64,000 bases of DNA from Niebla homalea (taxonomy: Eukaryota > Ascomycota > Lecanoromycetes > Lecanorales > Ramalinaceae): NCBI GenBank assembly GCA_019925105.1, contig JAHGAU010000014.1, positions 62,001 to 126,000 on the forward strand, read 5' to 3'. Shown in pieces: positions 42,309-64,000 of the stretch. Every line of letters begins with the position of its first letter. Position 1 is the first letter of the stretch. The notes under the pieces are model-generated. The model worked only from the letters and a program-made list of their open reading frames with translations. It made no database searches and had not been told where the DNA came from. Made by a program: the position numbers and the translations under genes.

Positions 42309-43439
42309 TCAGTCGCCCACCCAATCATCAGAAGAAGACTCGGCATCATCCATCTTCTCCCGCCGCTCCACCAAAGGCTTCTGTCCCCAAATCACCACCT
42401 TCGGCACCACCCTCGCCACACCCTTCTGACTCATCATCAATCCAAACTCAAGATCCTTCGCCAACCCCTCGCCTTTCTCCCCACCACCTTCTGCTTTGCC
42501 CTCTACCTCCTCCTGCATGACCAAGAACTGCAAACTCTGCAAGAATCCCGCAATGCTCCTCTCCCCCTCAAACACCTCCTTCCCCACCTCCTCAAACCCG
42601 ACCGCTCCGAACGTATCCTCCAACTTCCTCACCCACCTCAGCCCCTCAAAACTCGCCTTCTCCTGCATCCGCTGGAACCGGGTGAGGTCCTCCGCTCCGG
42701 CGCCCCCACCATCGCCCCCCACCACCCCAGCCCCTTCCACATCCAACTCATCCCACTGCATCCACCCCCCCGGCCGCAGCATCTCCCACGCCTTCCTCAG
42801 CACCGGCATCGCATCACCGCCGCGGATGACCAGCAGCGCGAGACGCAGGTGCACCACGTCGTACGCGCCCTTCCAGCGCGGAGGAACGCCGGCATCATCA
42901 TAGATGTCCCACTCGCGCAACTCCATTCCGCGGGGCAAGGGGGCCCCGTGCGGGGCCTGGGCGAGAGAGATATCGGATGCGGTGATGCTGACATCATCGG
43001 CGTTCGGGTCGTCGTCGGCGCCGCGGGCGGGGGACAGGAGTTGCAGGAGGGAGAGGGCCCAGAAGGCGGTGCCGGTCGCGAGGTCGTGGATGCGGAGCGG
43101 GCGGACAGTCTTCTGTTCGGATGGTGGGGGCGATGAGGCCGAGCCGGTCGGTAATGATGAGGGAGGAGGGTTGGAGGATGATGCGATTCTGGGATGGAGA
43201 GGAGCCAGAGCCTTGGCTATTGCGGGATGGAGCAGGAAGCGGAGGTCGTGTTGCCAGAGAGCGTGTTGGGCGATCAGGCGGGCGGTGGAGAGGGGAGAAC
43301 GGGAGAGTGGGTAGGTCGTGGGTGCTGAGGAGGTCGGCTTGAGGTCGGAGCTTTTCGCGGGCTTGGGAGTTTCCGGAGTTTCATAAATTGACCCTGGGGG
43401 GGGCATGGAAAGAATATTGTAGGCTTGGGGTGTCTGCAT
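42309..43439 (-). CDS. LaeA-like SAM-dependent methyltransferase
   Basis: A single exon of 376 residues, starting at the ATG of MQTPQAYNILSMPPPGSIYE. The open frame extends 54 codons upstream but without coding character. The SAM-binding motif I is HDLATGTAFWA at 118-128, followed by the acidic loop ITASDISLAQAP, the YDVVHLRLALLV strand and MLRPGGWMQWDELD, as in the LaeA/velvet-associated group of fungal methyltransferases. Gly-rich and Pro-rich insertions occur around residues 90-110 and 270. LaeA-type proteins act as global regulators of secondary metabolism, but many paralogues have unknown targets. It lies at the left edge of the accessory cluster. A related N-terminal fragment sits at 62879-63211. 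Confidence 0.75.
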   Translation of the reverse strand: MQTPQAYNILSMPPPGSIYETPETPKPAKSSDLKPTSSAPTTYPLSRSPLSTARLIAQHALWQHDLRFLLHPAIAKALAPLHPRIASSSNPPPSSLPTGSASSPPPSEQKTVRPLRIHDLATGTAFWALSLLQLLSPARGADDDPNADDVSITASDISLAQAPHGAPLPRGMELREWDIYDDAGVPPRWKGAYDVVHLRLALLVIRGGDAMPVLRKAWEMLRPGGWMQWDELDVEGAGVVGGDGGGAGAEDLTRFQRMQEKASFEGLRWVRKLEDTFGAVGFEEVGKEVFEGERSIAGFLQSLQFLVMQEEVEGKAEGGGEKGEGLAKDLEFGLMMSQKGVARVVPKVVIWGQKPLVERREKMDDAESSSDDWVGD

Positions 43440-43971
43440 GATTGACGTCCCTGACTGAAAGCAACTGAGGGTTGATGCTGACTTTCCAGGTCGGGTCAGG
43501 ATTACGAATCTGAACCGCAAACACAAACATGAGCGGGTGACTCTACTTGTTGGTTTACTGTGCCCTTGTACGACTCGGTCGTTGCAGGTGCAAACCCCCA
43601 ATGTATCAGTTCCGCGGCTCAGGAATCGCGAATCCGCAGCAACTCATACTATTGAAATATGTGGACGGACACGCCAGACGGCTCATTGGGTGACTTTGCA
43701 AGCGGATGAATCGTTGATCCGAAGAGCCTATTCTGCCCCTGAGACAAGGATGATTCAATCAATTGTCCAATCAAGGGTATTCCGACTGTAAGACCAGTGA
43801 TTCTTGCAGCTTTAATCGAACGTGGACGACATATTACGAGCTTCACTTGGGCGAGACGGCGATTTGTCTACAAGACCAGAGGAACTTCATTATTCATTAT
43901 ACTGGCAACTTTGACCTGGGAATCAGATCCTACCAATGCCCCACGATCGCGTCGCTCGAGATGTCAAGCGT
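43440..43971. other. Intergenic region
   Basis: About 530 bases holding the methyltransferase promoter and the 3' region of the rhodopsin-domain gene. Nothing else was seen. Confidence 0.3.
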
Positions 43972-45402
43972 CTACACTAAGTGGTCTGAATCTCGGCTTC
44001 CACCATTCGAACTCCCCTCATGGCCCTCCACAAAATAGTCGGTCCTGACATGAATTCCACTATCGTTTTTGACTGGTAAGCGCGGCGTAGGACGCGCATT
44101 TGGGCGTGAATCATTCTGAGCACGGTCCGTAAGCTCAACAAAACCATGTTCCCCTTGCTCAGCATTAGAGAATGAGCCCAACTTGTCACCTTTCTTCTTC
44201 CCTCTCCTGTAAGAGTCCCATGAGTATGATCCCTTGTACTGCTTGGATGGAGATGCGTTCTTGGCACTGTTACGGTTAGGGCGATTGACCGAGCCGAAGA
44301 GAATCAGATTTAGTATTGGGCGGAGAGAGGGAAGACATGCTACATCATTTGTTCTTCAGTAAGGTTGCGAGGTTGGGAGTACTGCGACTCAGACTCACCA
44401 CAAGTGATGCCTATATGGCTCTCAACGGCTGTCCATACCTGCGTGTTCACAAAGTTCCAAGTGATGTCTGGAGACTTGAGGTCAAGGTTGATTATGAATG
44501 TGAAACGCGCTATTGAAACGCAGACTACGCTGTGCTGGGGGTCAGAACGACTCCTTGCTTATGGAGTGCAGACTTACAAGATGCCAAGCACAAAAATACT
44601 GCTGAGCGCCAGCTTCTGAGCTCGAGGAAGCTGTAGTCTCCAGATGTACGGCATTGGTAGTACGAGAATTGCAGCATCAGTGATAATGTTCGGGATAGAA
44701 TTCCCGTCAAAGAAGTGATTGACGTCGACAGTACATTTGAAGCTATCTGGAGCGGTGGTAGGATCGAAGCGCATCCAGAACGCATTGACAGGTTGACATT
44801 GAAAGATAGTAACCAGAATCTAGGTGAATTTCAATACGAGACATCTGAAAAGTTTGGGCTCCCTTCAACTTACCACAGCAACGCTCCAAGCACTGACTAT
44901 TCCTGTAAGCACATATATTGGTATGCGGATGTTGCTCGTTTTGAACAAGCGCCAATAGAAGGCCAGCAAAGAGAACTTGACACTGCAGATGATGCAGGTG
45001 TAGCTGATTTCCGAGACGAAGAGGCCTTTGGCCCAAGCGACGGCAGCATCTGGCTTCCCAGCCCAGATGTGGCGTCCAAGACCATGGTCAACCACTAAAG
45101 GACTTAGCGGGGGCGATCAGAAAAGAACCATGCACTTACTATACGTAGTCGATACTAACATCATGGTGGCTGCCGCTGCCTATGTTGAGGTCAGTGACTG
45201 AAGAGCCAGAAGTTGATTACCATCATACTATAGCGGGCAACATGAGCCAGTCATCCCACCAGTATGGCTGGCGTGTTAATCGTCGCGCGGTGAATCGTAG
45301 GCATATTGCCAGTACTGCAAGTATAAATGTCGCAATGTTCACGCCCAGGATTCGAGGGACCTGAGTATCCTGCAAGTCGATGCCTGGAGGGGGACCATCC
45401 AT
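43972..45402 (-). CDS. Rhodopsin-domain integral membrane protein, copy A
   Basis: Six exons: 45402-45229, 45179-45140, 45094-44874, 44819-44578, 44529-44399, 44339-43972, giving 391 residues; all phases agree. It belongs to the fungal rhodopsin-domain (SAT5/PTH11-like) membrane proteins: seven predicted membrane segments, RFTARRLTRQPYWWDDWLML, DHGLGRHIWAG, FQCQPVNAFW, NIITDAAILVLPMPYIW, WNFVNTQVWTAVE and ACLPSLRPILN. The cytosolic C-terminal tail (110 residues) is basic then acidic. Members occur often in biosynthetic clusters, but their function is not established. Its paralogue at 59475-61048 has internal exons of identical length. Introns are 45-59 bases. Confidence 0.88.
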
Positions 45403-47335
45403 CCTGCGCCGGATTGTTGTGGGCGGAGTGATAACATTCGACCCTCAATCTCAGCAGTGAGCCTACTCATGAAGTTCTAGCCATGACGTGAAGACGGCCC
45501 CTACACAATGCTTATATGTTTTGGAAAGAATGCTGAAATCTTGCAGTAAGCCTACTTACGAAGCATCTTGCGACGTAAGGTACCGGCGGCACCCAATAAT
45601 ATCTGCTTCGGAATGGATTCGCGCCCCACAGAAGATGCCTTAAATAAGAGGTCTAAACAGCTAGTACCCTATCAAAACAGACCCTATAAGCAGCAGCCGC
45701 TCGGGACAACGAATCGGTTTCACATAAAGACATTCTCAGGCATGCAAAGAGAAGTCTGCATAGGGTCCGAGAAAGAACTCACAGGTACGTAAGGTAGTGA
45801 GGATCTTTTCAGCTGCAATGCGAGAGTGGTCTTACAAACGGTGCATTGCAGCAGGGCATGCAAGTCCGAGAAGCGCAAATTCCCGATTGGCTGGGTAGGG
45901 AAGTATTCTGTTGGGGTGGACGGAAGTTGGAATGTAATTGACACCATTTGACAAACATCATGCCAAGACCAGGGAGATACTTCTGGATCGTGATATGTCT
46001 AGTTGATATTACGGGGAGAATCATCGTGGCATCGAGCCTGGATTCAGACAGCTAAAATTCCCATGATCTTTCAGGCGCATGGTGTCAGGCCACTGTCACA
46101 ATTTCTTGCTATTGGTTCCGTATTGGGGCGGAGTATATAATTTTCCAATGCGGTGGAGATCATGATTCATTGAAAAAGTTAGCCGTCGGGGCTTGAGCAG
46201 AATTAGAGAATTCCACACCGTGGAATTCTCTGAGAAGAACTGCAGTTTAGTGGTCGCTTAAAGTGATGTACCGAGAAAGCTCGCCGCTAATATGCATGGT
46301 TGAGGCTGGCGACCTCTAGTAGCTGCGGGGTTGTGACGCATTCGTTGGCGATTCAGTCTGAAATTGGTAGGACGCTCAAGAGGATGGAGGGAACGGATTA
46401 TGAAGGATTCGGCTTGCATTAGGCTCGGATTCTGCCACATGAGTGCAGGATCCAGCTGCGCCTCGAGACGAAATGTCACATGTGAAACATGTGCTTAGGC
46501 TATTCCAGCTTGCTAATCACCTTGGAGAGACTAGACTCTGTGGTGGCCTGCTGGAGTTCAAATTGAGTTTCGAAGTGAGAAGATTTGCCGAGCTACCTCC
46601 CTGATGGGGTCTAGCTTTGTTATCATGGCTCCGTCACGATCCGACGTGCCGCAGTGCCCGTCTTCTCAAGTTCTCTCACCGTCTTCCCCACTGGCCATGT
46701 GGCATCATCGTTTCGAATCTATTTCGTATGTGAATTTGACAAGTCCCGAGCCTCCCCACGGGGACGGGCTGTCGTACGTACTATGTAGAGCACACGAGCT
46801 GTGAATATTGAGTAAGCGTTGATTTGTGCTGTTGCTTTCTGTCCGGCCTCGCCTTCTGATGGTTCACACTAACGAAGAAGGGTTCCAAGATCTCCCCCGG
46901 CCCCCGTTCGATCAATGATAAGTTGAAAATTAGGTCTCTGCCTTCTGCGTCATTTAGCTTGGCGATAGGCGTCTTGTGTCACTCAGAGTGGTACTGCCGC
47001 TCAATGGGCATGAAAATTGTATGGCAATCTTGGGGTTCTCTAGAAGTTTTGCGAGATTGTTTTACACATCGGTGTACGTTCGTACTGAGAGTATCGTGTG
47101 GGTCACAACGCGCCAACGAAGATAGCTTTTCAGGCAATAAACATGATGATGGACCCTTTCTTTCTGCATCTTAAAAGGGCGTGGCAGTCGCATTGGTTCA
47201 GGCTTTTTGGTGGTCGAAAACGCTGGCAATCCTGACGCACTAAAAACGGATTTGACATAAGCTCCTATCCCGTGCATGTGCCTGACATCTGCCCGCGCCG
47301 TGCAGCACGTATATCGCTCCTGCCACAGCTCAATA
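45403..47335. other. Intergenic region with a perfect palindrome
   Basis: About 1.9 kb without a recognisable gene. A perfect inverted repeat with 12-base arms (AGAGAATTCCAC / GTGGAATTCTCT, 3-base spacer) lies at 46205-46231. The remaining open frames are short and motif-free. Confidence 0.4.
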
Positions 47336-48261
47336 ATGGCGCCGCTGATCTTCTTCTCGCTCATTCTCCCCTTCTTGCCACAAATTGTTTTCTGTACACC
47401 ATTGTTTGCAATGGCCTCATTAACAGTTGTGTTGGTACCTGGAGCCTTCCATGTGGACTCCTCATTTGATATTCTGGGGGCAGAACTTCAACAAAAGGGG
47501 TACAATACACGTACCTGGGGGTTGATCACGGTCAACAAGCCTCAGGTCTCCATCGACGAGGACGCCAAGGCCCTGGCAGACGGGATCCTGAGGCCGCTCA
47601 TTGAGGAGCAGGGCAAGAACATCGTGCTCTACTTACATTCGTACGCTGGCTTCCCAGGAAGCGCTGCGATTGCTGGGTTGTCAAAGGCTGAAAGGGCCGC
47701 TAAAGGTCAACAAGGCGGCATCATTGGTCTAATCTACCAATCTGCTTTTATACCCAAGCCGGGCGACACTCTTTTACAGATGATCGGTGGCAATTATGCT
47801 CCTTGGCAGGCTCCAAATGTCAGTACCTTTCCCACCCAATCCTTGCTCATGACTCGACTACGTGCTGAACAATGCACCAGGAGACGACTGGGCTCGTCTC
47901 CGTCATTGATCCCCAGGGAACATTCTATGCCGACGTTCCGCAAACACTAGGCGTTGAAGCTGCGAACCAGATTTACCCTCAGTCCCTCTTGTCGTTCAAT
48001 TCACCCTCTGGACCAGTATATTACCAAGACGCAGCCTACAATGGACGTCGAGTGTATCTACATACAAACCAAGACCAGGCCCTTCCTCCCTTTGCACAGG
48101 ATATGTTCGTCAATGATAGTGGGGCTGAGTGGAAGGTCTTGAAGCTGGACACAAGCCATGGCCCCTTCCTCAGCGAGCCTGCTAAACTAGCAGGCATCGT
48201 TGACGAGAATGTGAAGAATTTCATTGCGAGCTTCAAGACTCGTAACGTCAGTGTGACCTAA
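47336..48261 (+). CDS. Alpha/beta hydrolase, cluster-associated
   Basis: Two exons: 47336-47818 and 47881-48261 around a 62-base intron (GTCAGT donor, CCAG acceptor), giving 287 residues. The fold is clear: VVLVPGAFH (oxyanion strand), Ser102 in LHSYAGFPGS as nucleophile, Asp225 in NQDQALPP and His254 in SHGPFLS. This is the small esterase/salicylate-esterase-like group. Starting at 47336 gives a hydrophobic N-terminus (MAPLIFFSLILPFLPQIVF) that could be a signal peptide. A start at 47411 (MASLTVVLVPGAF) would give a cytosolic enzyme and matches most family members better. A related hydrolase lies at the right edge of the window. It may hydrolyse an ester or process the cluster product. Confidence 0.85.
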
Positions 48262-48538
48262 GGTCTACTGCACTGTATAACGTATGCCGCCTGAGACGGT
48301 TGATAGCGCAGGAGGCACGAGGGTCACCAATGTAGGGGATTTGTTTGAATCTATCAGCTGGGCGCCAAGCCTATTTAATGTCAAGCATGCATTAGGCTAC
48401 ATCCCGAGCACCATAGGCCACGATTCCTCAAAGAACCTTCCATAATGAATAGGAGATCGTACTGCCATTCAAAGTCTTTCAAAGCTTTCTTACGCTGACA
48501 GTATGACCTTGCCAGCGCTGAAAGTGTGTAGCCCATCA

Positions 48539-50735
48539 ATGAACAGGTTGCTTTTAGCACACTCGCTCGAACTTGAGCGGGGTCTGCAAAATCCAGGAAA
48601 TCTCTGGTCCAGTGGTGGCCATCAGCTTTCTATAGCGACCGTCATCTTGGTCGCGAGGTGAGCATCTTCGATAATCCCTGAAAGGAGTCTGAGCACAAGA
48701 TAGGCATCTTTGTTCTGTGGACATCCCTGAAGAGGCTTGCGATGTCATCAACCACAGTGCCGAAAGCTTGAAAGCCGTAATATCAAGAAACGAAATCATC
48801 TATGGTATGCTCACACCTGTTCTTATCTACAAGGGAAGGCAATTGAGTGCATCAGGTCTTAATACTGGCTTCGGCGGCAGTGCTAACACTCGAACTACGA
48901 AATCGGAGAGTCTAAAGCGGGACCTTCTGAACGGTCTGCTCTATGGCATGCTCGGTGATCGTTCGCCAACGGCGAAGCATACTGCTTTTCTCCCTCTAGA
49001 CCATGCGGTCAAAATGAGCATGCCAGAGTCCTGGGCACGAGCCGCAATATTGATAAGAATCAGCTCCATGGCTCAAGGCGCATCTGGCGTGCTACTTCCC
49101 ACCTTGAAGGGTCTGACCAAGCTACTAAATAGAAATGTGATCCCTCAGATACCCCTACGTGGTAGCATTTCAGCCTCTGGCGATCTCAGCCCTCTTGCAT
49201 ATATTGCTGGCCTGTTGGAAGGCCAACCAACAGTCAATGCTTGGGTGACCAGTCAGGACGATGGTAGACGACGCTTGTTACCCTCTGATGAAGCCTTGGC
49301 GGAACAAGGTATTGCACCCATAAGCTTGAACCCTCGAGAAGCGTTGGCTCTTGTAAATGGCACATCAATGTCTGCAGGGTTGGCAGCCCTGGCTATGCAC
49401 GAGGCATTTCACCTGGCCACACTATCACAAGTCTTGACAGCAATGAGCGTTGAAGCCTTACGAGGCACTGACGAAAGCTTCGACCCGTTTTTGGCTGGGG
49501 TTCGACCGCATTGGGGTCAGGCAGAATCCGCGCGGACCATTCGTGGATTCCTACATGGATCAAAGTTGGTCTTTCGCGACCATGGCAACCAGGAATCCTC
49601 TCTCAGACAAGACCGTTATTCCATTCGAACGGCATCACAATGGATTGGACCGATCTTGGAAGATTTTGAACTTGCCTTCCGTCAGATATCGACTGAGCTC
49701 AATTCCGCTACTGACAATCCCCTTATTGACAGCGTAGGCTCTCGAATGGTTCATGGGGGTAATTTCCAGGCAATGAGTATTACATCAGCAATGGAGAAAG
49801 TTCGTCAAGCTTGCCAGTCCATGGGACGAATGTTGTTTACGCAATGTACTGAGCTCATCAATCCTGCCACTTCTCGTGGTTTATCCCCGAATCTGGTATT
49901 CGCCGAGCCATCTGAATCTTTTGTATTCAAAGGCACAGATATACTGATTGCTTCTCTGCTCTCGGAGCTGGGTTACCTTGCAAACCCGGTCACTCCGCAC
50001 GTGCAGACAGCGGAGATGGGTAACCAATCTCTGAACTCTCTTGCTCTCATTTCCGCACGCTATACCATGGACGCACTGAGCATCTTGACGCAACTCGCGG
50101 CAGCGCATCTTGTTGCTGTCTGTCAAGCCCTCGATTTACGGCTCTTCCACTCAAAATTCTTATCTACCCTGGAGCAAGAATTCAAGTCCAATCTGAAATG
50201 CAACATGCAACCCCATATGACAGACGATGGGGCCTTGTCAAGGCTTGTCAATGATGGCTGGAAGGAATACGTTGAACAATTGGATACGACTTCGGCTTCA
50301 GACTCCACTAAACGTATTCCGGGTGCAGTCCGCCATATTCAGACACTGTTTCTGCCGCACCTGGCGGCTTCAAACGACAGTCTCGATGCACTGAGGTCAT
50401 GTACCGACAGCTTGGGCCAAAAGGCACTCCACGTGTACTCACAAACTCGAGACCAGTACCTGAAAGCACCCGACGCAACACAATCATTAGGCAATGCCAG
50501 CCGAAAGATTCACAGGTATGTCAGAGCCGAGCTAGGAGCTCCTGCTGTGGGACCGCAAACTCTTGGTCAGCAAACTGGGCATGAAGCTACAGCCAAGCCG
50601 ATCGTCATTGGGGATCTCAATGAACGAGTCAGAGGCTCGATGAACGAAGATGGCTTGTACAAGGTCCTGATCGTGTGCCTCAAAGAGGTCGAAGAGGGCT
50701 GGCCCCCGCTCGCAGTAAGGCAGAGCAAACTCTGA
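48539..50735 (+). CDS. Aromatic amino acid ammonia-lyase (MIO enzyme, PAL/HAL family)
   Basis: Three exons: 48539-48657, 48704-48804, 48856-50735, giving 699 residues, the usual length for fungal phenylalanine ammonia-lyases. Ala180-Ser181-Gly182 in SISASGDLSPLAY would form the MIO prosthetic group; Tyr73 in IIYGLNTGFGGSANTRT is the catalytic base loop. Further signatures are NGTSMSAGLA, NSATDNPLID, HGGNFQAMSI and TAEMGNQSLNSLAL. It should deaminate Phe or Tyr to cinnamate or coumarate; aminomutase activity cannot be excluded. Start and first exon (LSIATVILVAR) come from motif continuity. Intron 2 (51 bases) is in frame with no stop, so the unspliced reading still looks open. Such a lyase is unusual beside a RiPP precursor. 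Confidence 0.92.
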
Positions 50736-51367: not shown

Positions 51368-51902
51368 ATGAGGGCCTCACTCCTTTACATAGCAGCCGTG
51401 GTCTGCGGCATGGTGACTGCAGCACCTCTAGGTGAGCTCAGCCGCCTTTTCCATAGTTTGAAGGGCATCGATGTCCCCTAACATGAGGTTAGCTTCAGAA
51501 GAGAAGAGGGCTCCTGATGTCGACAACAATCCAATCGCATACCCGGATGCCTACAAGCGAGAGGTCGAGGAGGGGCCTATTGCCTACCCAGACGCGTATA
51601 AACGCGAGGTAGAAGACGGCCCAATTGCTTACCCAGACGCCTACAAGCGAGAGGTCGAGGAGGGCCCTATTGCCTACCCAGACGCGTATAAACGCGAGGT
51701 AGAAGACGGCCCAATTGCTTACCCCGACGCGTACAAGAGGGAGGTTGAAGATGGGCCCATTGCCTACCCAGACGCCTACAAGCGAGAGGTTGAGGAGGGG
51801 CCTATTGCGTACCCCGACGCGTACAAGAGGGAGGTAGAGGATGGGCCCATTGCCTACCCAGATGCCTACAAGCGTGAGATCGAGGAAGGGGTCAACATGT
51901 AA
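51368..51902 (+). CDS. Putative RiPP precursor with eight PIAYPDAY repeats
   Basis: Two exons: 51368-51431 and 51499-51902; the intron has a GTGAGC donor, CTAAC branch and TTCAG acceptor. The product has 155 residues. Residues 1-19 are a signal peptide (MRASLLYIAAVVCGMVTAA). After EEKR and APDVDNN come eight identical PIAYPDAY segments, each followed by KR. Seven intervening spacers are EVEEG or EVEDG, and the tail is EIEEGVNM. The KR pairs are Kex2 sites, so the Golgi protease would release eight nearly identical peptides. This is the layout of ustiloxin/phomopsin/asperipin (dikaritin) precursors, and two UstYa-type proteins follow directly. The core contains two Tyr and one Ile, residues used in known ether crosslinks; core borders are inference. 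A pheromone precursor is the alternative. Confidence 0.88.
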
Positions 51903-52395: not shown

Positions 52396-53488
52396 ATGGC
52401 GAATGAACGTTTGGCCAGGAGCCCGAGGGTTTCAAATTCACGTCAAGAAGCCTCACCATTCCTCAGCTTAAAAGAGCGAACCACGAGCTCTGCAGAAGAC
52501 CCGGCAAATCCACCTCGTCAACATCGCAGAGACCCATTCCACTGGCTTCACCCCACCCTCAAACATCCCCTCAGTATCCACATGGTCCTCATACTCCTCT
52601 ACACCCTCATTACCATCCTGGTCCTCCGCTCACAAAGGGGCTGCTCTGGTATACTACCGCCAAGTACGCCATCACTCCTTTCATCCCCTCAGTCTCATGG
52701 ATACGAAGCTCACACCCCTAGCCTCCATCCAAAACCTCGATCGCCAATTCAGCACAACACTGTTCCACAATTTGACGAACAATCCGTACGCCGGTTCCGC
52801 TTTTGACGCCGTCGATTCAGCATGGAACACGCTTCTCGCACCGATGCACATCCGCGTCACAGCAGAGGAGTTACGGCAGGACGGTCAAGCATCTGTTGCG
52901 CTGCCTGAGGGTGGGGGATTCTTGGGATGGATGGGCGTGTTCCACGAGTTGCATTGTGTGGTACGTTCTCCTCATTTCTACTACTATGATATTTGAAGGC
53001 TGTGGGGGAGGGGAAGGTTGATGAGTGGGATACTGTTGTAGAACATGCTGCGCAAATGGACATACAAGTCGCACTACCATGGTAATTTGACGGGGGAGGA
53101 GGAGGAGCATCTGCTCTCGCATGTTGGTACGTACAGACATTCGTTTCGTTCATTTCATGGACCTGTATAATCCCCCGTCTCAAGAGTCCTATCTATCAGT
53201 CCACACTCCTCCTGCGAGTCGGAGACCTACAGCCCAGCTGACCATCACGTTTCTTGATCGAAACTAGACCACTGCATCGACATCCTCCGCCAAACGGCGC
53301 TCTGTCACGCCGACGCCTCCCTCACGACCTTCGTCTGGCACCCGCAAAAGGCACGGCCGATGTTCAACGCGAGCGAGGCTGAGCACACATGCATCGATTG
53401 GCCAAGATTGACGACGTCCATTGCGGACCGCGTGGTGAGCGAGCAGGAGATCAGGAGGCTTGAGAATCCGCTTCTTGCTGCCGCCTAA
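52396..53488 (+). CDS. UstYa-family (DUF3328) oxidase, model uncertain near the membrane segment
   Basis: Exons 52396 to 52960, 53042-53126 and 53268-53488. The N-terminus MANERLARSP is followed by a single membrane segment (MVLILLYTLITILVL). The lumenal domain has AWNTLLAPMHIRV and the two HxxHC motifs of the family, HELHC and HVDHC (the second formed across an exon junction). UstYa-type proteins catalyse oxidative crosslinking of Tyr-containing core peptides in dikaritin pathways. The frame changes by one base between the membrane segment and the NNPYAGSAFD region. Either the GGGG run at 52637-52640 carries one extra base, or an 88-base intron (52621-52708, GTCCTC/AAG) is removed. The later exons are solid. 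The 53042 and 53268 junctions restore NMLRKWTYKSHYHG and DHCIDILRQ. Confidence 0.82.
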
Positions 53489-53546
53489 AGCAACATTCTC
53501 TAAATATATGTCATGATGCGATACCGCAACCTTCACATTTCCCAAG

Positions 53547-54248
53547 TCAGCCATGGGTCATATGCGTCGTCCCATTCCCTCCCGTCCTGTCTCCATACCC
53601 CTCCCATTTTCCCACCCAATCCACCAAACCGTCCCAATCCTCACACACGTGCTCTGTCCCGAACCCCAACACCCCACCCACTTCCTCGTCTTTCTCCTCA
53701 ATCGTCAAGTCCGGTCGACACATCAGGCTCTGCCGTAAAAGATCGACGCAGTGGCTTACGTGCCGAGGGGACGTCATCATCGGCATGTCCGACACATTGA
53801 AACGGTGTGTGGCTGGCCCTGATGCATCAGAAGACGCATTGGTAGCAACATCATATAGCGCGTAATACCCCTGCCGTATCCCATCCAAACAGTGCAGTTG
53901 GTGAAACACCGAGAATGCGGACCGGTGAGGCGCAAGATTCGGGTGGGTGAAAAACCCGCCCTGGGTGGGGAAGATGGAGGACCAGGCAGCGTTGGAGTGA
54001 GGGGAGGGGGGCGAGCCGAAGACAGGATCGTGAGTGAACGTCAAGGGGTGGAGAGGGAAGTTGAGAGATTGTTGGGGCGAAGGCAGGAAGGAGATGGAGA
54101 GCCGGCCAGCGAAGAAGCTTAGGGTGAGAAGAGCGACGATGGCGAGGATGGTCAGGGGGAGGGTAAGGATAGATCGGTGGGTCTTCTGTTGAGTATCATT
54201 TCGAAGAGGAGAGTATCTGTAATGGGTACCACGGAAGAAGGACAGCAT
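53547..54248 (-). CDS. UstYa/UstYb-family (DUF3328) protein
   Basis: A single exon of 233 residues. A membrane segment spans about 27-50 (SILTLPLTILAIVALLTLSF). The lumenal domain carries HQLHC at 116-120 and HVSHC at 163-167, the paired HxxHC motifs that define the family and are thought to bind metal. The closing motif FGTEHVCEDWDGLVDW is also typical. It is convergent with the other UstYa-like gene, 58 bases away. Dikaritin clusters generally carry two or more such proteins that act together on the core peptide. The frame is intact, so this copy may be the active partner even if the other is damaged. Confidence 0.9.
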   Translation of the reverse strand: MLSFFRGTHYRYSPLRNDTQQKTHRSILTLPLTILAIVALLTLSFFAGRLSISFLPSPQQSLNFPLHPLTFTHDPVFGSPPSPHSNAAWSSIFPTQGGFFTHPNLAPHRSAFSVFHQLHCLDGIRQGYYALYDVATNASSDASGPATHRFNVSDMPMMTSPRHVSHCVDLLRQSLMCRPDLTIEEKDEEVGGVLGFGTEHVCEDWDGLVDWVGKWEGYGDRTGGNGTTHMTHG

Positions 54249-54772
54249 TGTCGTTGGATGAAATGGTCGGTGCCGTCAGCTGTTGGCTGCCTCTTCAGGA
54301 GTATTATCTTCAATCCTCGAGTTGTGCTGTTGATTCCTCTACACTGGAAGTTTTCCGGACCAGCTATTCCCGCTAGTAATTTACCACCGTACTCCGTATC
54401 ACGATGCATGTCGCAATGCAGGGGTTCGTGCCACGACTCGCAATGCAGGGTCCATACCACGACAAAGTCTGCTGTCCAAGACACGTATCCCTTCATGCCG
54501 CCCAATCATCGTCGAGTGTTTGCGTCCGGGGGCGGAGGCACGTGCGTGCAAAGAGCTGACAATCTTGGGACGAGGGTTGCCCGCAGGATCTAGCGTGAGG
54601 CAGAGTAACTGGCTCTCCGTCACGAGATCCATCATTTGCGTTTGTGGAATAAGGTGCTTATTCCAAAATCTCGACCCGCCGTGAAGGGTTTGGTATCCAA
54701 CCGGAGAAATGGTAAGCGAAGTAATGTAAAACCTATCGCCAGTCTCTTTGCATATCTTGAAGTCATCCTGCG

Positions 54773-56350
54773 ATGATGATCTTCGGGGAGCGTGAAGTCG
54801 GTGTACTGGACCTCTTTCGCGACTCCGTGAAGTGGGAAGTCCTGTGGTTCATCTTGGTCATCGCAGTCTGCTGTTCATTTCTCTTGCGGCGCGTTGCATC
54901 CACTCTCCACCGCTCTGGAGTGATTCGCAAGCACGGATGCAAGGCGCCCCCAGCTGTCCCACAGCTCGATCCAATATTCGGTCTTGACTTTGTGCTTCAG
55001 CTACTGTCATCACTTAGTAGGCGCAGGAAAAATGCCTCGCTGAGAGATCTGTTCGAGCGATATGGAACAACATTCTCGTCATGTGTGTACGGCACCACAA
55101 AGATCTTCACCATCGATCCGAAAAATCTACAAGCTGTGTTCGCCACGGATTTCGAAAGCTGGGGTGTGGCACCTGTGAGGCTCTTTTACTTTGGTCCTTT
55201 TGTTGGCAAGGGTGTGATGACAACAGATGGGCCTGAGTGGCAGCATTCCAGGGATCTGATTAGACCAACCTTTTCGCGGGTGCAGGTGACAAACCTGTCG
55301 ACGTACAAGGTCCACGTCAAGCGATTGCTACAACTCATACCCAAAAATGGGACAGTCGTGGACCTGAAGCCGCTGTTTGAGAGATTGGCACTCGATTCTT
55401 CCACCGAGCTGCTATTTGGGATATCCACGGCTTCACTGACACCTGATGCAACCATGGACAGTAAAATGTTCCTCGAGGCCTATAATTACGGTCAGGCTGG
55501 GGTTGGTAGGAGGATGCACCTCATGGCATGGAATTTACTTACAAGGGACAAGCGCTTCTGGCGCTCATGTGAAAGCGCACGTGCATTCGTCAGCCAAAGA
55601 GTGAACAGATGCATGGACAAATCCGGCAAACGGCTTCCTTCTGAACAGCATCAAGCACCAAAAAAGCTGGTGCTTGCAGAGGAGCTACTGGCTCAAACGA
55701 GCGACATCACTGATATCACCAACCAACTCCTGAACGTCTTTCTCCCGGCTCACGACGCAACAGCTGTCGCAATGACAAACGTATTCTTCCATCTTGCCCG
55801 TCATCCTAAGATATACCAAAAGCTTCGCGAGGAAGTCAAAGCATTGACGGGCGGGGATCAGAAATATGAGTGGACGTTTGAGCGCCTGAAAAGCTGTCGA
55901 TACTTGCAAAATGTAATGAGGGAGACCTTTCGCCTCAATCCAGCAATCGGCCAGATGAACCGGGCAGCCCTCCAAGACACAATTTTACCGACAGGCGGCG
56001 GACCTGACGGCCGATCCCCAATATTCGTGAAAAGGGGTACCGTGATGACGACGAGTTTCTATGCACTGCACCGACTACCACGCTATTTCGGTTCTCATGC
56101 TCACCAATGGCGACCAGAGCGCTGGGATGATCTCAAGGCTGAGTATTGGAGCTATCTGCCCTTTGGCGGTGGGCCACGCATCTGTATCGGGCAGCAGCTG
56201 GCGTTGACTGAGGTGGGATATGCAGTTGTGGCGATTGTTGAAAAGTTCTCGCGCATTGAGAATGCGGACCCTGTACTTGAGTTTGTGGAGGACTGGAAGA
56301 TCACGACCATGAGTGCTAACGGTGCGAGGGTTAGGCTGTTTGTGGATTAG
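54773..56350 (+). CDS. Cytochrome P450, CYP52-like
   Basis: A single exon of 525 residues, with an N-terminal membrane anchor (LWFILVIAVCCSFLL, about 24-38). The heme-binding loop is FGGGPRICIG with Cys471; the ExxR motif is Glu384-Arg387 in RETFRL; the I-helix has PAHDAT at 325-330. GVMTTDGPEWQHSRDLIRPTF and the YLQNVMRETFRLNP stretch resemble the CYP52 alkane/fatty-acid hydroxylase group of the ER. In a cluster setting it may instead oxidise the peptide or a lyase-derived aromatic acid. It is transcribed toward the O-methyltransferase, 386 bases upstream of that start. The lack of introns differs from most neighbours. Confidence 0.92.
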   Translation: MMIFGEREVGVLDLFRDSVKWEVLWFILVIAVCCSFLLRRVASTLHRSGVIRKHGCKAPPAVPQLDPIFGLDFVLQLLSSLSRRRKNASLRDLFERYGTTFSSCVYGTTKIFTIDPKNLQAVFATDFESWGVAPVRLFYFGPFVGKGVMTTDGPEWQHSRDLIRPTFSRVQVTNLSTYKVHVKRLLQLIPKNGTVVDLKPLFERLALDSSTELLFGISTASLTPDATMDSKMFLEAYNYGQAGVGRRMHLMAWNLLTRDKRFWRSCESARAFVSQRVNRCMDKSGKRLPSEQHQAPKKLVLAEELLAQTSDITDITNQLLNVFLPAHDATAVAMTNVFFHLARHPKIYQKLREEVKALTGGDQKYEWTFERLKSCRYLQNVMRETFRLNPAIGQMNRAALQDTILPTGGGPDGRSPIFVKRGTVMTTSFYALHRLPRYFGSHAHQWRPERWDDLKAEYWSYLPFGGGPRICIGQQLALTEVGYAVVAIVEKFSRIENADPVLEFVEDWKITTMSANGARVRLFVD

Positions 56351-56736
56351 TCTTAGCAGAGCTTGTAGAGAGTTGGTAGGGGAGGCTGCCATTTTGCCGA
56401 TATGTCAGAGAGTACTGATGGTACAGAAGTGTTCCCTGCGCGATACCGTATATTGTAGACAAGATGGTAACCCTTCTAGTAAGCATGTATGAGGGACATT
56501 CCCGGGTACAGGAGCACAGCATGATGAGTACGTTGTATGGCCAGACTCAAATTGCAGAGCATGAGGGGACTCGTACCCCGCAAAAACGGCCTGAGTGTGA
56601 CTTGCCTAATTCAGCGCGTGCGAAACCTGCGAGAGCCCAAACATATTCTTCTGATAAATTCACCTGTGGAGGAGATGCTCCATTGCTAGTTCAAGCTTGT
56701 CAAGTGAGATCGCGGCCCAGACTCCTTGGATTGGAA
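56351..56736. promoter_or_regulatory. P450 / O-methyltransferase intergenic region
   Basis: About 390 bases. The open frame of the next gene extends through part of this interval from 56464, but it is poor in coding character, and the start was put at 56737. Confidence 0.3.
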
Positions 56737-58219
56737 ATGCCTTCTAATAGGACATCGGAGCTTGCTTCGATCATTGCATTGAACACAGAAAAGATCGAAG
56801 AGTATCTAGCGAAGAAAGGGTCACCGCCGCTGTCATTTGATGTGGGTTCAGATGCTTTGCTACACCAACACTCTCAGATAGCCCGAGAGCGTCAAGCGGT
56901 TCTTAACGCCACAGAAGAGCTTCACGCGTTGATACTCGGGCCCAAAGCAAGCCTAATGTCCCAGCCAGTTAGTGCTCTCAACGCATCATCGCGAGATGCT
57001 GGATATACCACATCATTGACTAGCACGATAGGTCAATTACTGGACAACGATGCACGCGATATACGAATTTGGCCTCGCAACTGCAATTCCAGAAGATCGA
57101 GAAGAAGCGACATACGCTGAGCTTGCCGCCATAACAGGGCTCACAGAGAATTACATTCAAAGATTCTTCCGACATGCAATGACATATCACATCTTCCAGG
57201 AGCCACGGAAAGGGGTGGTATGCCACACGGCAGCCTCGAAGCTGCTTGCCAATGATCCATTGATGAGACAATGGCTGGGTATGGTGTCCGAGGAGATATG
57301 GCCAGCGGGTACAAAGGTAGGACTTCGTCATCTCAACATACTGGGTGAATGAAAACTAGATCCTGATAGTGAGGGGCAGGTCGTCGACGCTTTGATTAAG
57401 TGGCCAGGATCTGAAGAGCCGGAGAACTCGGTCCTCTAAACCTTCTTTCTAGCTTTCCTGGCTGATTATCTGAAGGGGTACAACATCGCCAATAGTACAG
57501 AAGTCACTTTCTTCGATGAGATTTCCAGACATGCCGAGCGCGAGAAGCGGTACGCATCCGCTATGACCTTGTCCTCGACATGGCCTGGCCTAGAAGCTAC
57601 CCACATATTGAATGGCTTCGACTGGCCTAGTCTGGGAAAAGGGCTGGTGGTCGATATAGGCGGATCACACGGCTCCTTAAGCATGACAATTGCACATCAG
57701 TATCTGGACTTGAGTTTCGTAGTCCAAGACAAGGAAGAGGTTGTAAGAGTGGGTGAGAAGGTATTGCCGCTCGATCTTATTGAACGCATCAGCTTCATGG
57801 CCCATGACTTCTTTGCGGATCAACCTGTTTCAGGCGCGGACGTGTACATCCTACGCTGGGTCCTCCATGACTGGTCCGACAAGTACGCCATCCGAATCTT
57901 GCGAGCTCTGAGACCAGCTCTCAAAAGCGGTGTTAGGGTCCTTATTGTGGAGCAAATTATGCCTGAGCCAGGGACCATTCCTCCATTTGCTGAGAAAGGA
58001 TTGCGGTAAGAGCTGACTTCCCTTCAATAATATCCGACGATACTGATAGTCATTACCAGTGGCTTTGACATCTCAATGTGGGCTTTGCACAACGCGAAAG
58101 AGCGGGATCTGGACGACTGGCAGCGGTTGATCAATGATGCCGACAGTAGATTTCAGATCACCTCGATAAATCAACCCAGTGGATCTCGCCTGAGCGTCAT
58201 TGTCGTGACATGGAACTGA
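56737..58219 (+). CDS. SAM-dependent O-methyltransferase
   Basis: Five exons: 56737-56967, 57032-57316, 57380-57430, 57476-58005, 58060-58219, giving 418 residues. An N-terminal winged-helix/dimerisation part (MHAIYEFGLATAIPE, EKIEEYLAKKG) precedes the catalytic domain: motif I VVDIGGSHGS (247-256), DVYILRWVLHDWSD with catalytic His320, and KSGVRVLIVEQIMPEPG. This is the plant-type caffeate O-methyltransferase-like fungal family, acting on phenolic hydroxyls. Intron 3 is only 45 bases, starts GTCCTC, and contains an in-frame TAA that would otherwise look like a nonsense mutation; splicing restores EEPENSGYNIANSTE. Its probable substrate is a Tyr-derived phenol or hydroxycinnamate of the same cluster. 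An upstream ATG at 56464 is less likely. Confidence 0.9.
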
Positions 58220-59474: not shown

Positions 59475-61048
59475 TCAAATTCTATCATCCAGACCCCGGA
59501 TTGCGCCGTGATTATCATCGCTTTCATATCGTCGGCCTCCCGACGGCCTCATGACTGGATGAGGGAATGGCGTCGCATATGTTTCGACCTCTTCCACGCG
59601 ATTGTAATCCCTTTTTCCGGTCTTATCAGCCCCCTCTACTTTGATCTCTGTGCTCACCTGGATCTCGCCACCCATGTTGCTTAAGAGGCGGCGCTTTGAC
59701 CCTGCGTGTATGCGCGGAGGATCAGAGCTACGGTTACTAGACCGATTGGCGAGCCCAACACCATCCACCCCTCCATGGCCTAACATTTCAATCGAGTCTC
59801 CCTCATCCACACCACTTGTAGCTTGAGTCTGCCCTTCCCAATCATGTGGCTTTCCAAAGCGCGAGTATGACGATGAGCTGACTCGGTCAGGGCGACTGTT
59901 ACGGTGTACCGAACCAAAAAGGATGAGGTTCAAGAAAGGAAGAAGTGTGGGGAGGCATGCTATGGCCCAAGGTCAGGAACGGTATCTATACTCGAGAGCG
60001 GATCCTAGCTCACCGCAAGTGATACATGTGTGGCTCTCGACAGCAGTCCAGATTTGGGTATTCACGAAGTTCCAGGTGACATCTGGAGATAACGAATCGA
60101 GGCTTATGATGAATGTAAAACGTGTTATTGACACACCAAGTACGCTTTTGGAGCAATTAGCAGGTCTCATTATCAGGTTGACTCCCTGACCCCTACTAAC
60201 AATATACCAAGTACGACAATGAAAATCACAGCAAGCTTCTGAGTTTTTGGGAGGTTCAGACCCCAAATTTGGGGTAGTGGTAGGACCAGAAGTGCCGCAT
60301 CTGTGATAATGTTGGGAATAGAAGTACCGCTGAAGTAGTGGTTGATATTGATAAAACACTTATGGCTGTCCGGATATGTATCTGGCGTATAACGTGTCCA
60401 ACAAGCGTTCACAGGCCGACATTGGAAGATAGCGATAAGAATCTGGAATATGAGGAGAACGTGAGGCTATGTCCCATGATTTGAGACGAGCGTGAGCTCC
60501 GACTTACCGTTGCAATACCCCAGGCGCCGATTATTGCCGCGAGGACGTACGTTGGCTTTCGAAAATCGCTATTCTTGAGTAAGGGCCAATAAAAGGCCAA
60601 TAGAGAGAACTTGACACAACATAAGAGGAAAGGGTAGCAAATTTCCGTAATAAATACCCCCTTGGCCCACGCGGTAAGAACATCTTGGGGGCCAGCCCAA
60701 ACATGACGTCCCAAGCCATGATTCACGCCTAGTTACAAGTCATCGACAGTTAAGAAGTACTCGGAAAGCACGTACCGTAGATATTTGGTACAAACACCAT
60801 GATGCTCGCTGCTACCTGTGCTATCATTAGTGGCCTGGTGCAGCAAGAGGATTCTGTCCTTATACAATTGCTGGTAGCATGAGCCAGTCATCCCACCAAT
60901 ACGACTGGCGAACCAGTCTTCGCGCAGTAAAGCGCAAAACAATAGCTATGACTGCCAGGATAAATGTTGCGATGTTGACGCCCTGTAGCCGTGGAACTTG
61001 AGTGGCAGAAAGATCGATTCCTGGCGGAGCCGGCCCCAGACCAGCCAT
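59475..61048 (-). CDS. Rhodopsin-domain integral membrane protein, copy B
   Basis: Six exons: 61048-60866, 60815-60776, 60728-60508, 60442-60201, 60144-60014, 59959-59475, giving 433 residues with continuous frame. It is the same family as copy A: RFTARRLVRQSYWWDDWLML, NHGLGRHVWAG, FQCRPVNACW, NIITDAALLVLPLPQIW, WNFVNTQIWTAVE and ACLPTLLPFLN, with seven membrane segments. The soluble C-terminal tail is longer (about 150 residues), Ser/Arg-rich and diverged. The four middle exons match copy A in length exactly. The intron 4 donor is GTTAGT and its branch site lies in TGCTAAT. Function is not established; membrane sensing or transport of the cluster product are guesses. Confidence 0.88.
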
Positions 61049-62878
61049 CGTTCATGAAAGGCTCGGATGCCTTCAACAAAGGGCAATGACAAGTATTGGC
61101 AAGCCCGAGCTTAGGTCTTACTCGCGCAAGCGTAGTAGCCGAGGGCCGTTCATATGAGATTTCACGAGGGCAGAAGTAAAGTGTCATGCTTCCGCAATGT
61201 CTTCAAACGCCGTATGGCATGTGGCACGGCTTTCTGGAAAGTGCCAGCGTATGGCTGAATGTTTGCTGCGCCGCCGCACCTCGCAATATGCAGGTGTGCT
61301 GAGCTTTGCTCCAGAGGACGGATGGGCACGGAAGAGCGGAGAATTTTAGTTCTTTCATAGTGATAGGTTATCAACCTCTGATTCGCGAGCGCAGGCCGTG
61401 TGCAGCCGAAAGTCTGGAGCTAGCGAGGCACAGCACATGCACCTCCTGCATGTCAGACTTTGAAGTGACGGAGTACATGCCACATGCAAGCATGATCCTA
61501 CGCTTCCATGCCATTAGCTGCACTGTGGCTGGAGGGAGGCATGGCATCCAGCCCAGATGCCATGCTACAAGGGACATTGACATGATTCATCTGCGCGCGA
61601 GAAAGAGCATGATCTGGCTTACATCAGTCGTTCTCATTCAAGTAATGTGAGACCAATGGCGCCTCACTGTAAGGCTCGAAACGTACCGACCGATGCCGAA
61701 CTGTTAGGTATGATAGACAGCGGATCATCCTCATTGGGGACAGTGGTCGGCGTTTCAAAATGGGCGTACTGGAAGTATTTCCATTCCTCTAGTAAGTGGG
61801 ACTCATGCGTTTGCGAGGATGCAACAAACTTTGTTGTCAGGCTATGCCTGTGTGATAGACAAATCAGAGGCCAGAGCATGCTAGCTTTGTTGCTGTGCCG
61901 TTGGTTCCATGCAAAAGGTATTACACTATCACGGAAGTCCACACTAAAAGTCCTGGAGTACGCTAAGAGTTGGGAATACATGTATGAAGTTTGGGAAGTA
62001 ATATTCGATGCGCTAAGATGTATTGAAAAGCCTTTAAGCAGCTGAGCCTCAGAAGGCTGCCTGAGGCCCCTTGGCCTATTGGCGCTAACGTGTGGCTTTA
62101 AGGGCCTCTCTCCAGGCACTTCAACGCTGAGCTAAGATTTTTGATACGGTACAGAGCTTAGTGCATCAATAATACTGATCAAAATTAAAAACGAGTCTTA
62201 GCGTACTCCAGGACTTTTAGTGTGGACATCCGTATCACACCAAGAAGAAGATTGGACTTTTGGATGAAGTAGACGTCGGTGGTACACAATAAGAGGCGAA
62301 ATGGCGGTAGGCGAGAATCATGCGCTTCATACCACTAACGTATTACCCCGGCTATAACCAAACAATCGGATATTCTCTCGCATCCTCAGAGTGTAATTGG
62401 GGTAGGATTAGCTAGTGCAGGCATGGTGGTAGTGTTGCGGGCATGGAGGGTCACTGAGCCGTCATATGAGCGGTGCCAAGGCACTCTCATGACACGTGTA
62501 TATTTCATCACCTTGCCGTACATCCCAGACTAGCTGGGTGTTTCCTGCAGGCATCATAATAGATCATACTCAATTCAGATCCCATCACACTCATGCGTCC
62601 ACGCGTGTGACAGACTGTTGTCCTCTTAAGTCCCCAGAATGCTCCCATATTACCGTTTGCGAACATTGTTCCCTCCCCTCACGTGTAGTATTGGGTTTCG
62701 GCTGCTTCAACCATCAAACCGCCAGACCCCTCCACCTCCCACTTCCCCTTCCCCATCGCGCTCATCTTCCACTATCTGGGAAGACAAGCACACGGGGAAT
62801 GAAGCCCGTTTCGTCTTGCGCCATGCAGCGAGCAACCGTAGCAGGGTGTTGGAAGAGCAACTTGGTCGGCGCCAATGG
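61049..62878. other. Intergenic region with an inverted repeat
   Basis: About 1.8 kb without a recognised gene. A near-perfect inverted repeat of about 38 bases lies at 61931-61968 and 62196-62233. Frames at 61647-62045 (plus) and 61664-62119 (minus) overlap its left arm and have no motif. Confidence 0.4.
61931..62233. repeat. Inverted repeat of about 38 bases, 227-base spacer
   Basis: The arm at 61931-61968 contains CCACACTAAAAGTCCTGGAG. Its reverse complement occurs at 62196-62233 with a single mismatch. The whole element is about 303 bases. It could be a non-autonomous transposable element (MITE) or a solo terminal repeat pair. I saw no clear target-site duplication. Confidence 0.7.
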
Positions 62879-63211
62879 CTATCGCGATGGGGGAGCATGT
62901 TCCGTTCCAGCTGAAGTTGCCGGCTTAGAGGTATCATAGATGGAGCCGGGGGTAGGCATGGCGAGGATGCTGTAGGCTTTCTGTGTCGGCACTGTAGGCT
63001 TGGATGTATGAGAAGCAGAAATACCTGGTGTGCCTTTTGTCTGTTGCGGCTGTACCTATTGTAGCTTTATCTGGTGCGACCTTCTCTTGAGAGAGTTCCT
63101 CTGTTGGAAACCTCGCCGGTGTTGGGATTACTGGCTTCTGATGGCCTTCTCCGCCGAGTCCCGTGGCTGAGGAGGGTCGCAGATAGCTCCAGGAGTGGGC
63201 GTGGAGAGCAT
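62879..63211 (-). pseudogene. Methyltransferase N-terminal remnant
   Basis: Two short frames repeat the N-terminal signature of the LaeA-like methyltransferase at 42309-43439. One starts at 63211 with MLSTPTPGAICD and stops at 63128-63130. The other reads AYSILAMPTPGSIYD and stops at 62879-62881, compared with AYNILSMPPPGSIYE in the intact gene. No SAM-binding motif follows on this strand, so only the N-terminal module is left. It is probably the remnant of a duplicated methyltransferase gene. A small unrelated spliced gene with this module is a less likely reading. Confidence 0.5.
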
Positions 63212-63709
63212 GTTTTAGGAGTGAGGTATTGATTAGGAACTATCTTTAGGTGACATTTTTGCTGATGAATGACCGCTCAGTATAGCCAAAAAGGCCCAGG
63301 AATGTCTTCGAAGACCCAATGGACCTATCTACATGTTTCGTGAAAGATTCAAACGGAGACGGGTTTACTGAGGACGAACATAATTTCTACCGCCGTATTG
63401 CATCATGTAAGCTACAACGTAGAATGTAACAATTGACTGTGATTTACTTTGAGACCCGATTCGAGATTCTGAGAGATTCATTGTTGCAGGTTAAGGCAGT
63501 GCATGTTCTTTTTTACGAACTTGTCCATCTGCGCAGAGTTCGTTTTCATCCCTCGAGTACTCTGTATATCGATCTACAGCAATCAAGAAGTGAGATTGGC
63601 GCTCAGGCTGAAATGTGAGTCTAGCCAAGTCTCTTGCCGTCTTGCTTTTACATGACCTTGAATCGCATGAATGTGTGCCGCAAAATTCCTCCGCCACGTT
63701 ACCAGAAGG
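63212..63709. other. Intergenic region
   Basis: About 500 bases, no gene seen. It holds the 3' region of the hydrolase fragment on its right. Confidence 0.3.
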
Positions 63710-64000
63710 TCAGGTAATCGCGACTGCGTCATTCAGATCATTTCCTGCAACAAAGGACGTCATCTCCCTGATCATCCAGTCACCCAAAGCTTTCGGCTGG
63801 CTCAAAAACGGACTGTGACTGGTGTCAAAGTTCTGCGTCCTCCAAGTGGCCCCCGACTGCGCCAGAAACGCGTTCTGTGCGACTAGGGGGATGCTGTGAT
63901 CCATCAGGGTGTGCGCATAGGAGCGTCGCCCCTCGTAGAAAGGTTCTGCCCATGCGGGTGGACCTCCCGGCGTGGAAAGGGCACTCCTCGACTCGTTCCT
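63710..64000 (-). CDS. Alpha/beta hydrolase, partial at window edge
   Basis: The C-terminal 96 codons of a minus-strand gene that continues beyond the window. It has PAWAEPFYEGRRSYAHTL, DHSIPLVAQNAF, WRTQNFDTSHSPFLSQP with the catalytic His, and a final helix WMIREMTSFV. It aligns along this length with the hydrolase at 47336-48261 (YQDAAYNGRRVYLHT, LKLDTSHGPFLSEP). They are therefore paralogues on opposite sides of the cluster. The frame is open to the edge. The nucleophile region lies outside the window. Confidence 0.8.
   Translation of the reverse strand, partial: RNESRSALSTPGGPPAWAEPFYEGRRSYAHTLMDHSIPLVAQNAFLAQSGATWRTQNFDTSHSPFLSQPKALGDWMIREMTSFVAGNDLNDAVAIT

Follow-up and report, generated by a model that had tools for sequence, protein, structure and literature searches.

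A candidate gene cluster for a Kex2-processed, UstY-modified repeat peptide in Niebla homalea

The locus and its repeat precursor

The window analysed here is a stretch of 64,000 nucleotides from Niebla homalea (C14:62001-126000, C14 being contig JAHGAU010000014.1 in a genome of 50.57 Mb and 52 contigs), the right-hand part of which carries a candidate dikaritin-like peptide gene cluster. A gene for a secreted repeat precursor lies between an intact gene for a phenylalanine ammonia-lyase (PAL)-like enzyme and two UstYa-family genes, UstY1 and UstY2, beyond which stand genes for a cytochrome P450 and an O-methyltransferase (OMT). Gene models were built by our own enumeration of splice sites, from sequence alone, and families were assigned by Pfam. 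From left to right the row reads methyltransferase-like (-), rhodopsin-like (-), alpha/beta hydrolase (+), PAL (+), precursor (+), UstY1 (+), UstY2 (-), P450 (+), OMT (+), second rhodopsin-like (-), methyltransferase-like fragment (-) and third hydrolase (-), with coordinates as collected in Table 1. A first-pass annotation of the window had named the two UstYs, P450, OMT, MIO lyase and hydrolase as neighbours of the precursor, and all are present with Pfam matches and open under plausible splicing.

The two exons of the precursor gene are separated by an intron of 61 bases, and the N-terminus of the protein is signal-peptide-like as judged by eye. Eight identical PIAYPDAY segments are each followed by KR and then by E(V/I)E(E/D)G. 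The first bases of their proline codons fall at 51531, 51576, 51621, 51666, 51711, 51756, 51801 and 51846, and tandem arrays were detected between 51531 and 51891. Splice model, repeat number and KR sites thus bear out the eight-copy secreted precursor described at first pass. In the seven units with a full spacer, all 68 pairwise differences among core codons are synonymous and none is non-synonymous; at random, 17 of 72 single changes in the core would be silent, and the spacer and KR codons of the same units hold 72 synonymous and 12 non-synonymous differences. Because the core protein is invariant and its codons are variable, the repeat cannot be put down to recent copying. Constraint on the released peptide predicts synonymous-only variation in the core, as was found.

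A genome search with the precursor identified a relative on the minus strand at window coordinates 78273-78040, some 26 kb off, which belongs to a diverged second copy of the unit at about 71,000-83,100, to the right of the window end. The locus is therefore larger than the extent of 42309-64000 first given to it. The copy-2 precursor has the core form IAYP(D/N)(S/A)Y, which directly follows each of the spacers EA.AA.EA.NA, DA.KA.EA.EA.GA, DA.EA.DT and EA.VP.KA.EA. The first of them begins at the start of a stop-bounded piece, the others after KR. In these spacers alanine or proline fills 15 of the 16 even positions and a single one of the 16 odd ones (p = 8.6e-7, in a test devised after the sequences were seen); the spacer of the very first copy-2 core, which lacks a preceding KR, was excluded. 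The copy-1 spacers, AP.DV.DN.NP and EV.E(E/D).GP, are of even length with X-Pro at the end, and even length holds for all seven distinct KR-bounded spacers of the two precursors, two being one-residue variants. Such X-Ala/X-Pro spacers are the signature of a Ste13-type dipeptidyl aminopeptidase as described for alpha-pheromones (PMC6339444). Since the copy-2 X-Ala/X-Pro spacers stop right before IAYP(D/N)(S/A)Y, the core is probably seven residues long, IAYPDAY, the leading proline being part of the spacer; PIAYPDAY, on which a core of eight residues or fewer was proposed earlier, is probably one residue too long. PIAYPDAY, AYPDAY and YPDAYKR do not occur in the open-access literature searched, in keeping with the earlier view that the core matches no known published one. 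The genome gave one match for Kex2-type genes and two for DPP-IV-type genes.

The precursor might instead be a repeat protein of the cell wall, structural or extensin-like, as a weak Pfam match to Extensin_1 could indicate, but the match scores 46 bits, under the cut-off of 105, and an extensin identity was rejected. With KR at all repeat borders, a strictly conserved core, the cluster context, and a second precursor that retains core and KR while its spacer sequence has changed, we regard a wall protein as highly improbable.

Table 1. Features of the gene row and of its second copy, in window coordinates (copy-2 features lie to the right of the window end)
Feature	Coordinates	Strand	Model or support
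SAM-dependent methyltransferase-like protein	42309..43439	-	376 aa open frame from inner Met; no Pfam or NCBIfam match of its own
Fungal rhodopsin-like membrane protein, several exons	43972..45173	-	PF20684 at C14:106400-106840 and 106868-107173 (window 44400-44840 and 44868-45173)
Alpha/beta hydrolase	47411..48261	+	Exons 47411-47818, 47881-48261; PF12697, 44 bits, 5.1e-11
PAL-like MIO enzyme, 711 aa	48503..50735	+	Exons 48503-48657, 48704-48804, 48856-50735; PF00221, 474 bits, 4.9e-142
Putative RiPP precursor, 157 aa	51368..51902	+	Signal-peptide exon 51368-51431, repeat exon 51493-51902
Eight core copies (P)IAYPDAY, KR after each	51531..51869	+	Repeat reading, spacer analysis
UstY1, 265 aa	52396..53488	+	Exons 52396-52648, 52722-52960, 53042-53126, 53268-53488; PF11807, 127 bits, 1.1e-36
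UstY2, 233 aa, single exon	53550..54248	-	PF11807, 89 bits, 7.1e-25
Cytochrome P450, 525 aa, single exon	54773..56350	+	PF00067, 194 bits, 4.4e-57
O-methyltransferase, 422 aa	56737..58219	+	Exons 56737-56967, 57032-57308, 57360-57430, 57476-58005, 58060-58219; PF00891, 93 bits, 1.7e-26
Second rhodopsin-like membrane protein gene	59475..60753	-	PF20684 at C14:121931-122143, 122194-122454, 122505-122753
Fragment resembling the 42309-43439 protein	62846..62986	-	45% over 58 aa, E 7e-5
Third alpha/beta hydrolase gene, leaving the window	63746..64000	-	To about 64593; PF12697; 35-40% identical to 47411 hydrolase
Copy-2 methyltransferase-like	71703-71038		34% identity to copy 1; matches Methyltransf_25
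Copy-2 rhodopsin-like	72889-72239		
Copy-2 hydrolase	74695-75480		31% identity to copy 1
Copy-2 OMT	79799-81142		33% identity to copy 1
Copy-2 P450	81528-83033		50.5% identity to copy 1

The second copy of the unit and the PAL gene

Homologues of the P450, OMT and hydrolase recur beside the second precursor, which argues that these enzymes belong to the peptide pathway. In copy 2 the place between hydrolase and precursor, held by PAL in copy 1, is taken by pieces of a class I/II aminotransferase; among its solved relatives BNA3 ranks first, ahead of glutamine and kynurenine aminotransferases. As an aminotransferase occupies the place of PAL, this suggests that the need shared by both copies would be removal of an amino group. 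Copy 2 gave no match to PF11807 or PF00221; the nearest were a UstY-like N-terminal similarity, weak at E 0.054, and PAL matches with E 0.94 or worse. Since the UstY catalytic domain was not found there and an in-frame stop interrupts the precursor behind the first core, copy 2 looks diverged and partly decayed. At about 66000-70000, between the copies, GC content is about 16% and a RIP-like index is raised; GC-poor blocks of this kind are left by repeat-induced point mutation (RIP).

The window PAL scores 559 bits against the NCBIfam equivalog TIGR01226 (cut-off 519) and contains the motifs ASG, LVNGT, RQDRY and NPLID as well as the MIO motif GSISASGDLSPLAYIAG. At the aligned position that we take to be His137 of RtPAL it has glycine, and this position varies among the aligned rows; the active-site residues are uninformative on the substrate of PAL. 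Relatives were compared among 32 listed for UstY1 and the best 120 of 2,642 for PAL (E <= 1e-100). Two named species have homologues of both proteins among the matches listed, and in both the locus tags are two apart: Lobaria immixta (PAL MMC22_000939, UstY1 homologue MMC22_000937, both on contigs of 237,028) and Dirinaria (PAL Q9191_003428, UstY1 homologue Q9191_003430, both on contigs of 18,028). In a third pair of homologues both are on contigs of 19,630, and each pair is taken as lying on a single contig. From the tag numbers, one gene would stand between PAL and UstY1 in Lobaria and Dirinaria.

A PAL tree of 36 rows was built from 32 of the 120 listed relatives, the window PAL and three of the genome's four other PAL loci (one partial), the C35 fragment being left out. 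The window PAL and all three UstY-linked PALs fall into one clade of 23 of the 36 rows (100/100), the seven named members of which are presumably lichen fungi. Outside this clade are the three other included PALs of the genome, the non-lichen fungal PALs, some other lichen PALs, and Lobaria's other PAL among the matches listed (P0076, MMC22_005046), which has a distant tag. Because PAL and UstY1 homologues lie two tags apart in Lobaria and Dirinaria, PAL is probably a conserved cluster member and not a bystander. It may provide free cinnamate for a cap, or act in deamination within the peptide. An ammonia-lyase is unexpected in a cluster of this kind. Among the papers listed by open-access literature searches, judged on titles listed and word counts, none showed a PAL in a UstY or RiPP (ribosomally synthesized and post-translationally modified peptide) cluster, and none was relevant to lichen PAL clusters. 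Another PAL gene of this genome, at C2:1945972-1949264, has a tyrosinase match at a distance of about 1.3 kb, and the nearest UstY match on the same contig is more than 100 kb off.

PAL, P450, OMT and hydrolase would by themselves make a coherent small cinnamate pathway, and PAL was not found in copy 2, as would fit two pathways lying side by side, a phenylpropanoid route and an unrelated UstY peptide route. Homologues of P450, OMT and hydrolase adjoin the second precursor, however, and the precursor and UstYs have other genes of the row on both sides. Given also that PAL and UstY lie close together in Lobaria, Dirinaria and the third pair, and that these PALs are all members of the clade of the window PAL, we find two separate pathways unlikely and favour a single peptide cluster.

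Solved relatives of the P450 and OMT point to generic families only. The two best solved matches of the OMT are Methyltransf_2-family proteins, one of them named HpiI, so a non-methylating role is conceivable. The methyltransferase of ustiloxin is of the N-methyltransferase type, and the candidate counterpart here belongs to PF00891. Paralogues of the 47411 hydrolase occur in copy 2 and where the window ends on its right; for the hydrolase itself, an ATG upstream at 47336 is a possible alternative start. In the first rhodopsin-like gene the frame 43972-44355 has no Pfam match but is similar to the two other rhodopsin-like copies, and in the second the frame 59478-59972 taken alone has none. 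No transporter or peptidase was found among the proteins scanned by family, which cover part of the open reading frames only.

UstY proteins, other UstY loci and rhodopsin-like genes

Each UstY protein has a hydrophobic helix and two copies of the HxxHC motif noted at first pass (HELHC and HVDHC in UstY1, HQLHC and HVSHC in UstY2). In the family member CctR the motif forms a binuclear copper centre (PMC12435403). For the homologue of UstY1 from Lepraria, a structure model (mean pLDDT 83) places the motifs on two long helices, 144-159 and 170-193, and its long N-terminal helix is taken as a membrane helix. Against solved structures UstY1 gave no match by sequence, and the fold of the Lepraria model gave none at E <= 0.001. 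The ten best relatives of UstY1 include six named ones (Lepraria, Imshaugia, Dirinaria, Lecanora, Viridothelium and Xanthoria), all of which we take to be lichen-forming, while non-lichen fungi such as Lasiosphaeria and Botrytis rank lower; the relatives thus make a lichen-forming host very likely. The best match of UstY2 among the compared stretches lies at C35:33754-37073. There, too, two UstY genes stand close together on opposite strands, and a rhodopsin-like gene lies some 2 kb from them.

When merged at 8 kb, the genome has 22 UstY loci, 21 of them outside the window, and 20 stretches representing 11 of these 21 were surveyed for precursors. Three of the 11 hold KR-repeat precursors, with units of ELYPAPDLGRIKVDD on C3, GNFEADGMLAVGNDAESSYATKP on C8 and EPQENDLQYKYGKYAEE on C38. 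Upstream of each, in another frame, is a signal-peptide-like stretch that includes AAP, in the fashion of a split gene. The three further precursors (L024:2136-2423 (+), L027:7723-8016 (-) and L032:2299-2730 (+)) have cores unrelated to IAYPDAY; in the L024 precursor the frame closes after four repeats and another copy lies in a different frame. Applied to the window, the same scan returned the known precursor and one false match, the repeat protein at 7062-9593. QEQTL units recur in this large open frame, which by eye looks like a repeat protein of the NB-ARC/TPR type.

A rhodopsin-like PF20684 gene lies within 8 kb of 11 of the 22 UstY loci, where 0.8 would be expected (binomial 8.5e-11) assuming uniform gene density, an assumption that underlies all expectations given here; the rhodopsin count takes in the 150 listed of 156 matches, with 150 of 209 first-look candidates scored. 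Without the contig of the window, 10 of 21 UstY loci have such a gene within 10 kb. The same closeness was seen for 2 of 51 ketosynthase loci (1.9 expected; PF00109, which covers fatty-acid and polyketide synthases) and 18 of 88 P450 loci (3.3 expected; a lower bound, with 92 of 180 candidates scored), these loci having been merged after 98 ketosynthase and 109 P450 rows were reduced by eye to one row per gene. Within 8 kb it was seen for 3 of 6 tyrosinase loci, and for 1 of 5 PAL loci, namely the window's own. As ketosynthase loci are at expectation, the closeness is not general to biosynthetic clusters, and as tyrosinase loci and, less strongly, P450 loci share it, neither is it confined to UstY loci. 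An effect of shared accessory regions may lie behind it. None of the papers listed by an open-access full-text search on this subject contains the word rhodopsin.

Rhodopsin-like genes in the cluster and near these 11 UstY loci would fit a rival reading in which the precursor yields an unmodified alpha-pheromone-like signal, released by Kex2, Kex1 and Ste13 and maybe sensed by the rhodopsin-like protein, with the UstYs serving otherwise. The precursor resembles those of alpha-pheromones in its signal peptide, its KR sites and, clearly only in copy 2, its X-Ala/X-Pro spacers, a signature usual in that group (PMC6339444). It differs in that the core lacks the Cys and Trp present in the pheromones described in that source, and in having UstY, PAL, P450 and OMT neighbours, two UstYs directly adjoining it. 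Proteins annotated as mating factor or pheromone among the Kex2-processed repeat proteins (KEPs) are almost all without UstY neighbours according to PMC7329392. Considering also the PAL-UstY closeness in other lichens, we hold a plain pheromone to be improbable and a UstY-modified peptide to be the better reading.

Proposed pathway and relation to known peptide families

It is quite likely, judging by the gene content, that the locus is a biosynthetic cluster for a ribosomal, Kex2-processed, UstY-modified (dikaritin-like) peptide. The secreted precursor would enter the secretory pathway, where Kex2 would cut after each KR; a carboxypeptidase would then take off KR, and a Ste13-like dipeptidyl aminopeptidase would trim the spacer by dipeptides to leave IAYPDAY. 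One or both UstY copper oxidases could join Tyr side chains to neighbouring beta-carbons. If IAYPDAY is read as [IAY]-P-[DAY], it is natural to guess that each X-Ala-Tyr unit would carry one ring and each UstY would make one. P450 and OMT would decorate the product, and PAL would supply or remove an aromatic amine-derived group. From the genes we infer this order of processing, the formation of rings and what PAL, P450 and OMT do. A bolder proposal, and a doubtful one, is a lichen-specific hybrid class of peptides, in which a Kex2/Ste13-cut heptapeptide with two-UstY crosslinks is joined to, or trimmed by, a dedicated deamination arm (PAL, or the aminotransferase in the sister cluster), for example as a cinnamoyl-type cap decorated by P450 and OMT, and in which the rhodopsin-like protein may sense or export the product.

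Several observations weigh against the biosynthetic reading or its details. The cluster is known here from its genes, and shared promoter words within it were not above shuffles. Of two candidate homologues of the precursor in the protein collection, none reached E <= 0.01, and the gene between PAL and UstY1 in Lobaria and Dirinaria, which corresponds to the place of the precursor in the window, is known by its tag number (MMC22_000938 and Q9191_003429). The scan found no repeat precursor at 8 of the 11 other UstY loci surveyed. The spacer test is post hoc, and in copy 1 the dipeptide pattern is weak, with A or P at 4 of 10 even versus 1 of 10 odd positions (p = 0.3). Tyrosinase is part of the ustiloxin and phomopsin pathways, and none of the 11 PF00264 matches in the genome is on C14. 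As far as a sequence can tell, the dikaritin-type reading of the first-pass annotation is supported by the repeat precursor, the two UstYs and the Tyr core. Tyrosinase served as a dikaritin criterion in Ding et al., as told in PMC12048977, and has been optional since asperipin-2a. According to PMC6339444, Ste13 is not predicted for the ustiloxin and phomopsin precursors and X-Ala/X-Pro is typical of alpha-pheromones; processing to IAYPDAY would therefore be a variant.

With the dikaritins ustiloxin, phomopsin and asperipin-2a the cluster shares a secreted Kex2 repeat precursor, a Tyr core and adjacent UstYa oxidases with two HxxHC motifs (PMC6514808, PMC10512285). Unlike them it has the putative core IAYPDAY, a PAL and a PF00891 OMT, spacers in dipeptide steps (clear in copy 2) and a duplicated unit. 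Its PAL is, like other fungal PALs, an intact MIO lyase that passes the curated cut-off for the family, but differs in belonging to a separate clade with three members near UstY. Among lichen RiPP clusters, Clans R1 and R2 of Pasinato and Singh (2025, PMC12048977) likewise comprise Lecanoromycete UstY genes, R1 with two UstYs and an OMT. However, Clan R1 has a tyrosinase upstream, an FGE-sulfatase and its OMT between the UstYs, whereas in the window the OMT lies beyond the P450 and no tyrosinase was found on C14. In Clan R2, GNAT acetyltransferases flank one UstY (PMC12048977); no GNAT was found among the window proteins scanned by family, in which no search was aimed at GNAT. A conserved repeated precursor was not found in Clans R1 and R2 according to PMC12048977, and is explicit in the window.

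Set against a plain dikaritin member, the cluster is distinctive in its spacer pattern, its UstY-near PAL lineage, its duplication and the explicit repeat precursors. We know of no earlier report of a lichen-type genome in which explicit repeat precursors stand next to UstY genes. The 2020 KEP survey covered 1,461 strains and may include lichens (PMC7329392), and according to the 2025 survey there is no characterised RiPP from Lecanoromycetes (PMC12048977). One lichen-type genome with at least four UstY loci bearing explicit repeat precursors gives exact peptide masses to seek. For the window's precursor the calculated M+H is 812.3825 for linear IAYPDAY, 810.3668 for a form with one ring and 808.3512 for one with two rings, a methyl group adding 14.0157; the corresponding values for PIAYPDAY are 909.4352, 907.4196 and 905.4039. 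The closeness of UstY and rhodopsin-like genes, at 11 of the 22 loci, is directly checkable in other genomes, and the link with PAL is a marker for locating this cluster family in other lichens.

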